From NCBI GenBank assembly GCA_017483575.1, contig JAFUWF010000010.1:1-46963 (forward strand): a stretch of DNA of 46,963 nucleotides, written 5' to 3'. Below are positions 7,304 through 46,953 of the stretch, piece by piece (within the stretch, counting starts at the first letter, position 1; the number at the start of each line of letters is the position of its first letter). Under the pieces are notes generated by a model. It did not search any database, had not been told where the DNA came from, and saw nothing but the letters and a program-made list of their open reading frames with translations. Source of the stretch: Bacteroidales bacterium. Its GTDB lineage: Bacteria > Bacteroidota > Bacteroidia > Bacteroidales > P3. Both the position numbers and the translations under genes were made by a program.

Positions 7304-8985
7304 CCTCTTACGGGCAGGCGGTGCATTTCTCGCATCCCGGCGGTTTCTATGCCGACACCTTCAGCCTGGCCATGCAGCTGGCCTACGCCCCCGAGGGGGA
7401 ACCCTTCACCATCCACTACACCCTCAACGGCAACGCCCCCACCGCGTGCGACGCCCTCTACGAAGGCCCCCTGCCGCTAACCAACGCCCTCTATTCCCCC
7501 TCCGCCCTCTTCCGCCTGCCCACCGTGCCCGAGGACCGCTGGTACGCCCCCGACAGCGTGGAGCGCATCGTCGTGGTGCGGGCGGCAGTCTTCGACACCA
7601 CGGGCCTCCGCCGTTCGCCCGTGACCACCCACGCCTACCTCGTCGACTCCCTCCTCCGCCGCCGCATCTCCCTCCCCGTGGTGTCGCTCTGTGCCGACTC
7701 CCTCAGCCTCTACGACCGCGACACCGGCCTCTTCGTCCCCGGCTGGTACTTCGACCGCCGCTATCCCTACAGCACCGGCAACTACTTCCAGCGCGGCCGC
7801 CACTGGGAACGCCCCGCGGCCTTCGCCTACTATGCCCCCGACGGCAGCGCCACCGAGCAGGACTGCGGTCTCCGCGTCCACGGCAACAGCCAGCGCGTGC
7901 TGGTGCAGAAAGGCCTCTCGCTCTACGCCCGCCGCGAATACGGCGACAACACCTTCAGCCACCCCTTCTTCGGTCCCCACGGCCGCGAGAGCTACCGCCG
8001 CCTGGTCCTCCGCCCCTGGAGCACCTCCTGGAGCGGCGCCGGCATCGAGGACTGGCTCTGCCAGCATCTGGCGGACTCGCTGCGCTTCGACCACCTGGCC
8101 ACCTCGCCCGTGGTGCTCTTCGTCAACGGCGAGTACTGGGGCATCTACTTCCTCGAGGAGAAGGCCGACGAGCACTACGTCGAGGAGCACCACGGCGTCG
8201 ACAGCCGCTCGGTGGACCTCCTGGCCTACTGGGGCGGCGAGGTGGAGAACGGCTCCGCCGCACGCTGGAACGACCTCTACCAGTGGCTGCAGGCCGACGG
8301 CACGGACTACGAATACCTCGCTTCGCAAGTCGACACCGGCGCCGTGATGGACTACATGCTCATGCAGATACTCATCCTCAACGACGACTGGCCCGTCAGC
8401 AACGTGCGCCAGTGGGCCTCTGCCGACGGCCCCTGGCGCTGGATCTTCTTCGACGCCGACGGCGCCCTCTCCTCTTTCCCCGACAACGCCGCCATCCTCG
8501 ACTACATGACCTATCGCGCCTCCGGCACCTCCTCCCACACCTCAGCGCAGTCCACGCTGCTCTTCCGCCGCCTCTTCGCCAACCGCACCTTCCTCGAGGC
8601 CTCCATGCGGCGCCTGCGCGAAATCGTGGCCTCCCACTTCCGCTACCGCCGCTCCGGCGCCCTGCTGCGGCAGGTCGTGGAGGCTCTGGAGAGCGAGGTG
8701 CCCCACCAGATACGCCGCTTCGACAAGCCCTCCTCCATGGTCCGTTGGCGCATGGCCGTGGAGGTGATAGACGAATTCCTCCGCACCGAACCCGAGGCCA
8801 TGGTGAACGAATACGCCCAGTACTTCGGCCTCGAGCTCCCCGAGAGCGACCTCTGCACCGTCCTCGACCGCTACGGCCAGCTCGTGGCCACGGGCCACCT
8901 CCACGACCTCCGCGCCCACCTCCCCCAGGGCACCTACTACGTCCGCACCCTCGGCCACGACCCCCAGAAATGGCTCATCCCCTAA
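7207..8985 (+). CDS. Secreted CotH kinase family protein
   Basis: A 592-residue exported protein of the CotH family, which comprises atypical secreted kinase-like proteins. After the signal sequence comes a chitobiase/hexosaminidase C-terminal-like beta domain (about 40-145, with FTIHYTLNGNAPT). The CotH fold follows, with LRVHGNSQRVLVQKGLS (about 220-236), EYWGIYFLEEKADEHYVEE, and FFDADGALSS (about 413-422) holding the probable metal-binding aspartates. There is no T9SS C-terminal domain. The start ATG at 7207 lies inside a heptamer array, and no purine-rich ribosome-binding site distinct from the repeat is visible. The hydrophobic signal core (SFFLFFHFSFFISSYGQA) is encoded by inverted heptamers. 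It is separated from dtd only by another heptamer array. Confidence 0.88.
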   Translation: MRNEKARVSRKNSQAWLARASFFLFFHFSFFISSYGQAVHFSHPGGFYADTFSLAMQLAYAPEGEPFTIHYTLNGNAPTACDALYEGPLPLTNALYSPSALFRLPTVPEDRWYAPDSVERIVVVRAAVFDTTGLRRSPVTTHAYLVDSLLRRRISLPVVSLCADSLSLYDRDTGLFVPGWYFDRRYPYSTGNYFQRGRHWERPAAFAYYAPDGSATEQDCGLRVHGNSQRVLVQKGLSLYARREYGDNTFSHPFFGPHGRESYRRLVLRPWSTSWSGAGIEDWLCQHLADSLRFDHLATSPVVLFVNGEYWGIYFLEEKADEHYVEEHHGVDSRSVDLLAYWGGEVENGSAARWNDLYQWLQADGTDYEYLASQVDTGAVMDYMLMQILILNDDWPVSNVRQWASADGPWRWIFFDADGALSSFPDNAAILDYMTYRASGTSSHTSAQSTLLFRRLFANRTFLEASMRRLREIVASHFRYRRSGALLRQVVEALESEVPHQIRRFDKPSSMVRWRMAVEVIDEFLRTEPEAMVNEYAQYFGLELPESDLCTVLDRYGQLVATGHLHDLRAHLPQGTYYVRTLGHDPQKWLIP

Positions 8986-9038
8986 CCAATAACCAATAAC
9001 CAATAACCTATAACCAATAACCCATAACCCATAACCAA
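8983..9038 (+). repeat. Eight tandem TAACCAA heptamers filling the CotH/dtd spacer
   Basis: Eight consecutive 7-base units with the consensus TAACCAA run from the stop codon of the CotH gene (TAA 8983-8985) to the A of the dtd start codon (9038). Variants are TAACCTA and TAACCCA. The whole intergenic space is repeat. Confidence 0.95.
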
Positions 9039-9532
9039 TGAGAATTGTAATCCAACGCGTAAAAGAAGCCTCCGTCACCATCGGCGGCACCCTCAAGTCC
9101 GCCATCGGCCCCGGACTGTTGATCCTCGTGGGCATCTGCGACGACGACAGCGACGACGACATCGAATACCTCTGCCAGAAGGTGGTCAAGATGCGCATCT
9201 TCGACGATGCCGACGGCGTGATGCAGCCTGAGCCGCAGGCGAATGGCCTGCGACCTCGTGGAGCAAACCTCCCCGTGACCGACATCGACGGCTCCGGCCT
9301 GCTGGTCGTCAGCCAGTTCACGCTGATGGCCTCCACCCGCAAAGGCAACCGCCCCAGCTACATCCGCGCCTCCAAGCCCGACATCGCCGTGCCCCTCTAC
9401 GAGCGTTTCGTGGCCCGGCTGCAGCAACTCTTCGGCCGTCCCGTCCAGACCGGCACCTTCGGCGCCGACATGCAGGTGGCACTCGTCAACGACGGCCCCG
9501 TCACCATCCTCATGGACTCCCAGCAACGCTAG
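9038..9532 (+). CDS. dtd: D-aminoacyl-tRNA deacylase
   Basis: A 164-residue DTD enzyme that hydrolyses D-aminoacyl-tRNA (and Gly-tRNA(Ala)) in the cytoplasm. The two signature motifs are present: VVSQFTLMAS and the C-terminal NDGPVTI. It is longer than the usual roughly 150 residues because about 13 residues (around 64-76, PEPQANGLRPRGA) are inserted just before the DIDGSGLL strand. The inserted DNA contains a 7-bp hairpin. The gap to the upstream CotH gene is entirely heptamer repeat, so no normal ribosome-binding site is seen. Confidence 0.95.
   Translation: MRIVIQRVKEASVTIGGTLKSAIGPGLLILVGICDDDSDDDIEYLCQKVVKMRIFDDADGVMQPEPQANGLRPRGANLPVTDIDGSGLLVVSQFTLMASTRKGNRPSYIRASKPDIAVPLYERFVARLQQLFGRPVQTGTFGADMQVALVNDGPVTILMDSQQR
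9234..9252. repeat. Small palindrome in the dtd insertion
   Basis: CGCAGGC (9234-9240) pairs with GCCTGCG (9246-9252) around a 5-base loop. It lies in DNA that codes for residues absent from typical Dtd proteins. Confidence 0.6.
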
Positions 9533-9571
9533 CCCCTCCACCTCGTCCCCGAGAGGGGTCAAAGAGGTGTC

Positions 9572-9702
9572 TTATTCGACTGTTCTTATATAGTATACAT
9601 ATAGTATTCATATACTTCCCATATAGTTCTTATATACAGTATATGAATACTATATGAGAAGTATATGAATACTATATGTATACTATATGAGAACGGTCGA
9701 AT
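9572..9702. repeat. 131-bp AT-rich palindromic element, copy 1
   Basis: A near-perfect inverted repeat centred on A9638 with arms of about 64 bases, running from TTATTCGAC to GTCGAAT. Inside, each arm is a run of 11-base units beginning ATATA. It lies between the convergent 3' ends of dtd and prmC. Outside it are small C/G hairpins: CCCCgagaGGGG on the left and CCCCTG...CAGGGG on the right (9707-9723). Two further copies of the same length are at 32954 and 46823. Confidence 0.95.
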
Positions 9703-9706
9703 GAAA

Positions 9707-9723
9707 CCCCTGTTTGACAGGGG
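9707..9723. terminator. Possible terminator hairpin CCCCTG/CAGGGG
   Basis: CCCCTG and CAGGGG surround the loop TTTGA. It is at the right edge of palindrome copy 1, downstream of prmC and dtd. No long T-run follows on either strand, so it may instead be part of the repeat element. Confidence 0.3.
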
Positions 9724-9759
9724 TTTGGCCAGTTCTTTTGACGTTTCCGTTGATGGGGT

Positions 9760-10739: not shown

Positions 10740-11474
10740 CTAACCTTTCCTCCCGAAGTCTGCCGGTATCTCGCCCCAGCGGTCGGTGTCCCACTTGCGG
10801 ATCTCGGTGGTGTAGGTGTTGGTGCGGAGCCACTGCTCGGCGCGGTGCACGAAGTCCCACAGCTCGGCCGTGCGGGCGTCGTTGGGCAGCTTGCTCTTGC
10901 ACACCTTCTGGCGCACCCAGGAGATGGCGTTGACGGAGTCGGAGTAGATGATCTGGTTGAGGCGGTGCTTCTTGAGGTAGCTCAGGCCGTGGACGATGGC
11001 GAGGAACTCGCCGATGTTGTTGGTGCCGCGCTCGGCGCGGTAGTGGAAGACCTGCGTGCGCGTGGGGATGTAGATGCCTTGGTATTCCATGACGCCGGGG
11101 TTGCCGCTGCAGGCGGCGTCGACGGCCAGGGCGTCGAGGACGGGCAGCGGCGGCTGCGCGTCGGGCCGGAGGGCCGTCATGCCGTCGTTGTCGACGAAGA
11201 GAATCGGATTATTCCGAGTACTCCGATGACTCGGATTATTCTGAGTACTCTGAGTATTCTGATTATTCGGATTACTCTGATTATTCTGAGTGCTCTGGGC
11301 GACCACGCTGCCATACGGCAGCTTGATGGCCGCCTCGGCCTCCGCCAGGCTGTCGAAGCCCTTGTACTGCGCCCCCTGCACGCCCACGACCTGCTCCTTG
11401 CACTCGTCCCAGTCGGTGTATATGCCGGGCTGCTTGCCCTGCCACACCACATAGTATTTCTGTTTCTTCGCCAT
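10740..11474 (-). CDS. rnhA: Ribonuclease HI with N-terminal viroplasmin (hybrid-binding) domain
   Basis: A 244-residue RNase H1 that cuts RNA in RNA-DNA hybrids. Residues about 5-52 are a Caulimovirus viroplasmin/hybrid-binding domain (KYYVVWQGKQPGIYTDWDEC...YKGF). Residues about 110-244 are the catalytic domain, with acidic residues in AVDAACSGNPG, NNIGEFLAIVHG, YSDSVNA and KWDTDRWGEIPADFGRK. The two are joined by a Gln/Asn/Ser/Thr-rich linker (about 59-90) encoded entirely by 9-base tandem repeats. It is probably co-transcribed with prmC; its stop codon lies within three degenerate heptamers shared with the spacer. Confidence 0.95.
   Translation of the reverse strand: MAKKQKYYVVWQGKQPGIYTDWDECKEQVVGVQGAQYKGFDSLAEAEAAIKLPYGSVVAQSTQNNQSNPNNQNTQSTQNNPSHRSTRNNPILFVDNDGMTALRPDAQPPLPVLDALAVDAACSGNPGVMEYQGIYIPTRTQVFHYRAERGTNNIGEFLAIVHGLSYLKKHRLNQIIYSDSVNAISWVRQKVCKSKLPNDARTAELWDFVHRAEQWLRTNTYTTEIRKWDTDRWGEIPADFGRKG
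11205..11297 (-). repeat. About ten 9-base units forming the RNase HI linker
   Basis: On the minus strand the units follow C(A/C)GA(A/G)TA(A/C)T, for example CAGAATAAT, CAGAGTACT and CCGAATAAT. Three codons per unit keep the frame and give Gln/Pro-Asn/Ser-Asn/Thr tripeptides. The family is the same as in pcrA at 6935-6979. Confidence 0.85.
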
Positions 11475-32788: not shown

Positions 32789-32953
32789 GTCTTTCCTTTT
32801 AAATATAAATTCGCACCCATAGAAACGCAACCCTGCGCAAAATATTGTACGGAACATATAAATAAAATACACCTTCCGCACACCAACGGACGGCAGCATC
32901 CCCCGGCCTCCGCCCCCGGAATCCACCCCCGAAACAGGGTTCAAACAGCCGTT

Positions 32954-33084
32954 TTATTCGACTGTTCTTATATAGTATACATATAGTATTCATATACTTC
33001 TCATATAGTATTTATATACAGTATATGAATACTATATGAGAAGTATATGAATACTATATGTATACTATATGAATACAGTCGTAT
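32954..33084. repeat. 131-bp AT-rich palindromic element, copy 2
   Basis: The same length and structure as copy 1, centred on A33020. The arms are runs of 11-base ATATA units. On the right it continues into TTTGACCCCT (33084-33093), the reverse complement of the AGGGGTCAAA found left of copies 1 and 3. It sits between divergently transcribed genes. Confidence 0.95.
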
Positions 33085-33144
33085 TTGACCCCTGTCTGGA
33101 GGGGGTTGGATGCAGGTTGGAGAATCATAAAAAAACAAAAAAAA

Positions 33145-46705: not shown

Positions 46706-46822
46706 CGTATTCTTTTTCACACTTTATAACAAAATTTTGTTAAAATCCCTTAAAATTCCATTCCCCCATCCCCGACCCACCCCCGGAAACGGACCCCAAA
46801 AAAGAGGGGTCAAATAGGTACC

Positions 46823-46953
46823 TTATTCGACTGTTCTTATATAGTATGCATAGAGTATACATATACTTCTCATATAGTATTTATATACAGTATATGAATA
46901 CTATATGAGAAGTATATGTATACTATATGCATACTATATGACATGGGTCGAAT
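46823..46953. repeat. 131-bp AT-rich palindromic element, copy 3
   Basis: The same length and 11-base unit structure as copies 1 and 2, centred on A46889, with AGGGGTCAAA on its left (46805-46814). Relative to copies 1 and 2 it has two paired changes that keep the arms complementary (46848/46930 and 46859/46919) and one unpaired change (46853). It lies upstream of gpsA. Confidence 0.95.

Follow-up and report, generated by a model that had tools for sequence, protein, structure and literature searches.

Long palindromes in the window

The DNA analysed here (hereafter the window) is the whole 46,963-nt contig C29 of a Bacteroidales genome, designated G000, whose assembly of 1.96 Mb in 30 contigs is 77.7% complete. 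It carries three 131-bp elements, each symmetric about base 67, that begin TTATTCGACTG and end CGAAT or CGTAT (Table 1). On re-reading of the sequence, the coordinates, length, centre, start and ends listed in a first-pass annotation were confirmed for all three copies, and the gene contexts it had given were likewise borne out. The genes adjoining the first copy (W1) encode a D-Tyr-tRNA deacylase and a PrmC-like methyltransferase, and those adjoining the second (W2) a TPR protein together with one that has a secretion-system sorting domain; gene contexts throughout derive from an unpublished, approximate gene finder. Two runs of shorter repeats are also present in the window, a 14-bp tandem repeat (TAACCAATAACCTA) at 8983-9052, mostly between two genes, and 9-bp tandem repeats (TCGGATTATTCTGAG...) at 11204-11302, inside a predicted gene (10740-11474).

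Table 1. Positions of the three palindromic elements and their parts in the window.
Feature	Position	Strand	Description
W1 palindromic core	9572..9702	+	131 bp, centre 9638, between convergent genes
W1 left arm	9586..9636	+	11-bp units from 9586, 9597, 9608 and 9619, then a partial unit to the centre; read from sequence
W1 right arm	9640..9694	+	Five 11-bp units (TATATGAATAC, TATATGAGAAG, ...), largely complementary to the left arm
W1 left outer degenerate inverted-repeat part	9546..9571	+	Family consensus CAAACAGGGGTCAAACAGGTGTC; from column information
W1 right outer degenerate inverted-repeat part	9703..9728	+	Family consensus GGGGCTGTTTGACAGGGGTTTGG; from column information
W2 palindromic core	32954..33084	+	Between divergent genes
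W2 left outer part	32928..32953	+	
W2 right outer part	33085..33110	+	
W3 palindromic core	46823..46953	+	Upstream of gpsA, 10 bp from contig end
W3 left outer part	46797..46822	+	Right outer part cut off by contig end

While the 131-bp core is as first described, the true element is longer, being extended on both sides by ~25 bp of degenerate inverted repeat; with these outer repeats it is a non-coding, multi-copy sequence of 131-180 bp. Among the 40 G000 copies available with flanks (37 fetched loci plus the three window copies, the best-scoring 40 of at least 69), the core hardly varies, ~25 bp on either side of it form the degenerate repeat, and conservation goes no further. Across 39 of these copies, mean pairwise identity falls from 0.937 in the core to 0.557 and 0.553 in the two outer parts and to 0.293 in the flank. 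The outer motif, when allowed up to six mismatches, was found beside cores 29 times on the left and 25 times on the right, and three times elsewhere, one of these being the W2 flank itself; since nearly all matches adjoin cores, we rejected the idea that it constitutes a separate repeat family.

Both arms are built from 11-bp units, and the lag-11 self-match reaches 0.71 in G000 (40 copies) and 0.84 in a related genome, G007 (UBA3684), against 0.33 in shuffles of ten G000 arms. W1 and W2, the two copies tested, fold as DNA at -45.6 and -49.3 kcal/mol (z = -13.7 and -15.7), a stability equalled by 0/200 shuffles, and 2233 of the 2560 arm cells in G000 are paired (87%). The G007 element is less symmetric, with a mean paired fraction of 0.78 vs 0.89 in G000 (RNA parameters); its core occurs in variants of 117 or 128 bp, one 11-bp unit apart, and its arms, unequal by one such unit, pair less than those of G000. 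Three pairs of positions vary on both arms in G000 and are complementary in 37/40, 30/40 and 6/40 copies. Together they give 73/120 complementary combinations, compared with a mean of 51 and a maximum of 63 in shuffles, although linkage of allelic forms could produce the same counts.

Copy number and genomic context

The first genome search scored 40 copies in G000 (from 77 first-look candidates), and later searches brought the total to at least 69 distinct copies, so the earlier surmise that three copies in one contig signal many in the genome was correct. An assembly artefact, which the first-pass annotation had named as a way in which the finding might fail, or an error of binning is scarcely credible for the family: 54 G000 copies (40 + 14) have differing surroundings, 8 of the 69 listed copies, W3 among them, lie within 500 bp of a contig end, and the same sites recur in independent assemblies of other species. 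What might suggest otherwise is that contigs of G007 and of a further relative, G100 (UBA4347), often end in the element.

None of 40 copies overlaps a predicted gene. The 37 classifiable sites comprise 17 divergent, 14 tandem and 6 convergent gene pairs, vs 10, 36 and 2 for the remaining gaps of 100 bp or more in that sequence, and orientation at the tandem sites is evenly split (7 vs 7). These figures bear on whether the palindrome acts at the RNA level, as a terminator, an RNase III site or the source of a hairpin-derived small RNA. Such a role would suit the long hairpin and the excess of complementary doubly variable pairs, but 17 of the 37 sites lie between divergent genes, no orientation is preferred at tandem ones, a search of Rfam gave no match to the palindrome, and the unequal arms of G007 pair less well, leaving an RNA-level function very improbable. 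A consensus scan of W1 placed two sigma-70-like matches within the palindrome, against 0.4 expected, and a single terminator-like site beyond it, with the proviso that this consensus may not be the host's; Bacteroidales use a promoter type other than the sigma-70-like consensus.

Other repeats occur beside the palindromes. A second G000 family (..ACACTCCTCAGTCAGCG..CTCCCCTAACTTAGGGGAG..) adjoins several copies (L017, L021, L028, L029), and many G007 palindromes, at loci such as L104-L118, have runs of short repeats (GTGATGA, GTTAAGA) immediately outside them.

Spacing along the chromosome

The copies avoid one another. The 69 listed G000 elements define 46 spacings within contigs, with a minimum of 7,893 bp and a coefficient of variation of 0.525 (0.94 at random); none is below 7.5 kb, where 14.2 were expected at random. 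This regularity was matched in 0/4000 simulations, even when candidate gaps were restricted to one in every 4 or 8 kb. Without recourse to the pattern-based list, a profile search covering 270,735 bp (3 kb on either side of 37 copies, together with the window) found no extra copy, relic or solo arm near known copies. Under a hard-core model the observed spacing is slightly more regular than expected, with p = 0.03 at an exclusion of 7 kb and 0.07 at 7.8 kb, and exclusion thus accounts for most of the regularity. In G007 nine spacings can be seen, the smallest being 9.6 kb; weak partial matches underlie some of them, and because the positions are partly inherited they are not independent evidence. 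At the other extreme, the 213-kb contig C26 holds one copy vs 7.5 expected (P 0.0026, for a contig chosen after the fact). The dnaA contig of G000 has four copies, and contigs C13, C15, C17 and C30 (30-34 kb each) have no palindrome among those listed.

The spacing is therefore non-random, a property shared with matS-like sites. matS/MatP and other chromosome-organising palindromes are spaced at tens of kb, and matS itself is a short site; the element described here resembles them as a palindromic site recurring at tens of kb and differs in measuring 131-180 bp, in being lineage-specific and in diverging between sister species. The first-pass annotation had proposed a chromosome-organising site or a protein-binding array, and the even spacing gave the former unexpected support, while the 11-bp units suit the latter. 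Combined, the two ideas would make the palindrome a multi-unit array, its units repeating roughly once per helical turn and forming two sets that face each other, to which a nucleoid or segregation protein would bind; the array would be needed at intervals of about 25 kb, and its sequence would co-evolve with that protein. Besides the G000 spacing and the 9.6-kb minimum in G007, the 11-bp periodicity in two species and, as discussed below, the retention of orthologous positions while the sequence changes are consistent with such a role. However, the binding protein is hypothetical, with no candidate linked to the palindrome; the element is confined to few genomes of one genus, its cores diverge between sister species and another sister has almost none; C26 bears a single copy; and hard-core exclusion nearly explains the G000 spacing, to which G007 adds no independent evidence. 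We consider this account rather unlikely. Its bolder form, a new kind of organising site in which 11-bp-unit arrays about every 25 kb keep their positions through several speciations while their sequence is rewritten together with a fast-evolving DNA-binding protein, is more doubtful, yet if true such sites would be a bacterial parallel to rapidly evolving centromere repeats.

Distribution among related genomes

Searches of the genus (120 genomes) with the G000 element gave matches in G000, G007, G044 (RUG539) and G087 in a set of 99 genomes, and in G100 and G087 in a set of 22. When 84,980 species genomes were scanned for the exact pattern, a search that changed cores would escape, 34 stretches were returned, all from UBA3684, UBA4347 and RUG539 (Bacteroidales). 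The palindrome had no match in phage and plasmid records by distant blastn or in viral contigs by exact pattern. The RUG539 copy (L193/L049) lies on a 3.2-kb contig (ONQD01000074.1) and probably represents contamination or transfer from the clade of G000, G007 and G087; we set it aside because its flank is 86% like G087, while at a different locus G044 is ~73% from G000.

Shared sites with species-specific cores

G007 has ~40 copies with a core different from that of G000, and some of the two species' copies occupy the same sites. Flanks of 14 of the 40 G000 loci are shared with G007 element loci, and for 13 of these the shared flank approaches the element to ~230 bp or less in each species, on one side or both; in the fourteenth pair (L031/L107) it begins ~2 kb away in both. 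The 13 G000 loci correspond to 12 G007 loci, one of which, L136, pairs with both L017 and L046. Close flank on both sides is seen among these pairs only for L024/L121 and L038/L124, and many G007 contigs end in the element. Three further orthologous pairs are L360/L138 (both sides), L320/L137 and L350/L111, and at L046/L136 and L036/L125 the alignment is continuous from gene into element.

At these orthologous sites the cores are far more alike within each species than orthologues are between species. Pairwise alignment in both orientations gives mean identities of 0.928 within G000 (53 of 69 listed copies), 0.954 within G007 (27 of 40 fetched loci) and 0.780 between species, with the 12 orthologous core pairs at 0.763-0.814 in the better orientation. 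A single multiple alignment gives 0.935 and 0.949 within G000 and G007, 0.695 between them and 0.661-0.722 for 11 orthologous pairs, and BLAST gives 75-79% between the two cores, so that between-species core identity spans ~70-79% depending on method. The first 40 G000 copies were the best-scoring, which inflates identity, and adding 13 of 14 more (one of <110 bp was dropped) lowers the mean from 0.937 to 0.928. No G000 core is nearer a G007 core than its closest G000 core. Intermediates exist, with L350 at 0.90 to G000 and 0.83 to G007 and L362 at 0.91 and 0.85. Orthologous cores are slightly more alike than cores with shuffled partners (p = 0.027), which indicates that a trace of locus history remains and that homogenisation is incomplete.

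The sequence just outside the core, on the other hand, keeps its locus identity. Over the last 60 bp, orthologues are more alike than non-orthologues (p = 0.0012, 13 side-pairs, mostly through L046 and L036), and over the last 30 bp p = 0.04, with one side, L028, poorly bounded. At two sites common to all three species (L021/L115/L189 and L023/L113/L188), G100 carries a third core type; here the match is by flank on a single side, since the G100 contigs have their ends in the element. G100 also has a G007-like core, adjoining the right flank of the L046 site, and at another position one G000-like core. Of the 13 orthologous pairs, 6 show opposite relative orientation, and two copies, L353 and L360, have a flipped centre. 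One stretch of 155 bp, 93% identical between G100 and G007 copies with different neighbours, takes in ~50 bp of sequence outside the core and has the look of a conversion tract that overran. In L136 the flank to the left of the L046 site is fused to the one on the right of the L017 site, whereas in G087 the two L017 flanks are still found together; the breakpoint would fall in the palindrome, and the arrangement is consistent with a crossover between copies or, possibly, a mis-join at the repeat.

These shared sites weigh against the non-autonomous mobile element that the first-pass annotation had put forward. An active MITE-like element moved by a host transposase could in principle yield both main patterns, if bursts replaced older copies and target immunity, which is known for some transposons, set the spacing. 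The element is short, non-coding and multi-copy, as MITEs are, and its copy number, its intergenic siting, its degenerate outer inverted repeats and the minority core types in G100 would all fit. But its ends are more diverged than its interior, the drop in identity from 94% to 56% to 29% across the core border being a poor fit to a single transposed unit of one age, and sites are common to species with different cores, 13 of the 40 G000 loci with flanks having a G007 element at the same place. Direct flanking repeats did not exceed those of shuffled pairs at k = 2-8 in 38 copies, whose exact ends are uncertain, and no transposase-bearing relative was seen in the G000 sequence around the copies and the window. 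Together with the lack of extra copies or solo arms nearby, these results make transposition an unlikely source of the present family. A link to Y1 (RAYT-type) transposases of the REP/REPIN kind was rejected, as Y1 genes are neither specific to carriers nor distinctively beside copies: PF01797 is over cut-off in 17 of 22 genomes, among which carriers are not distinct, and for two of the three Y1 genes of G000 the nearest listed copy is at least ~7 kb away. A distance of ~2.2 kb separates the third, a partial match at C5:136924, from the copy at C5:134672, which is not unusual at this density.

Relics and SbcD in a sister species

G087 is about as close to G000 as G007 is, with identities over 37 segments of 86.9% and 87.9%, respectively. 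A profile search of 1.6 of its 2.6 Mb found five decayed relics at E <0.01 (reversed control 0), and searches with the G000 element a sixth, on C12. The site of G000 copy L011 holds one relic, where the flanks align on both sides, and another lies beside the right flank of L033. When 14 G000 sites were set against G087, one had a relic and 13 had none, the intergenic sequence there being mostly unalignable. G087 has almost no copies and is probably a sister species that lost them. A strict palindrome scan gave 15 palindromes in 270,735 bp of G000 (13 in elements) and 7 in 1.6 Mb of G087; it missed most elements and was set aside.

The hairpin nuclease subunit SbcD (TIGR00619) is over cut-off in G087, whereas G000, G007 and G100 reach only 20-22 bits against a cut-off of 77.65. 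A link between the lack of an SbcD match over cut-off and the palindromes is suggestive only: because 63 of the 120 genus genomes lack a hit over cut-off, so that three of three carriers would do so by chance with a probability of ~0.14, and because the carrier genomes are only 72-79% complete, we treat the absence as a lead.

Homogenisation by gene conversion as the favoured explanation

Identity within species well above that between species at orthologous sites is the mark of a repeat family that appears to evolve in concert. The pattern is one of concerted evolution, best explained by ectopic gene conversion as its simplest cause. The overall account that we favour, and judge probable with some reserve, is that of lineage-specific, dispersed intergenic giant palindromes with cores of 11-bp units, homogenised by ectopic gene conversion, with a putative loss of SbcCD permissive and mutual exclusion presumably arising by deletion between close pairs. 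Cores would be overwritten by homologous recombination between copies at different loci, perhaps started at hairpins or breaks at the palindrome. As both arms match, conversion could proceed in either orientation, and the poorly matching outer parts would form natural borders of the conversion tracts. Repeated transposition into the same sites could mimic this pattern, conversion itself being something that we infer from the pattern.

Extracts of work on Escherichia coli describe SbcCD cleaving hairpins formed by long palindromes (PMC4245961). A model in which such cleavage drives conversion was dropped because the carriers have no SbcD over cut-off. Loss of the nuclease may instead let palindromes accumulate, in keeping with G087, which has SbcD and shows only decayed relics. 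The ~8-kb exclusion would follow if close pairs recombine and lose the DNA between them; alternatively, the spacing may itself be functional. As to function, a homogenised repeat is favoured over a chromosome-organising site, and any host function is hypothetical.

Dispersed repeats in bacteria are usually read as the debris of transposition, whereas here positions are inherited and sequences have been replaced genome-wide, in a different way in each sister species. The family is real, large and lineage-specific; what surprises is that sites are shared while the cores are species-specific, and that copies avoid each other. It bears on the homogenisation of dispersed intergenic DNA, on the possible licensing of long palindromes by SbcCD loss and on selection on repeat spacing.

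Comparison with known repeat families

The family is a variant of dispersed intergenic palindromic repeats, new as such. Open-licence PMC literature yielded nothing on this family or on concerted evolution of dispersed bacterial palindromes, and in the extracts available of a survey of perfect inverted repeats (PMC13155455) the term Bacteroid is absent.

ERIC is palindromic. Going by extracts of published descriptions, ERIC/IRU elements (127 bp) are similar in length, mostly intergenic and present in tens of copies or more (PMC2229807, PMC10969869). They belong to another clade, and the present family is set apart by arms of 11-bp units, shared sites with species-specific cores and mutual avoidance, a comparison made with ERIC by description only. 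REP/REPIN sequences with their RAYT transposases are also extragenic palindromes of high copy number, but REPs measure 20-40 bp in the extracted accounts (PMC3116915, PMC3733652) and no specific Y1 transposase link exists here. The STAR elements of staphylococci resemble the palindromes in occupying dozens of intergenic loci per genome with uneven presence among sister species; their authors report that the species compared had no neighbourhoods in common and gave no indication of gene conversion (PMC3532100), the opposite of what the palindromes suggest. The BrickBuilt MITE of Porphyromonas gingivalis is likewise from Bacteroidales, strictly intergenic and with internal short repeats in variable unit number, but differs in being composed of 23-nt tandem direct repeats with terminal repeats that match known IS elements. 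According to extracts from its description (PMC4596501), target duplications of varying length accompany three of the four BrickBuilt copies with both ends, and some sites are common to P. gingivalis and its sister species P. gulae.
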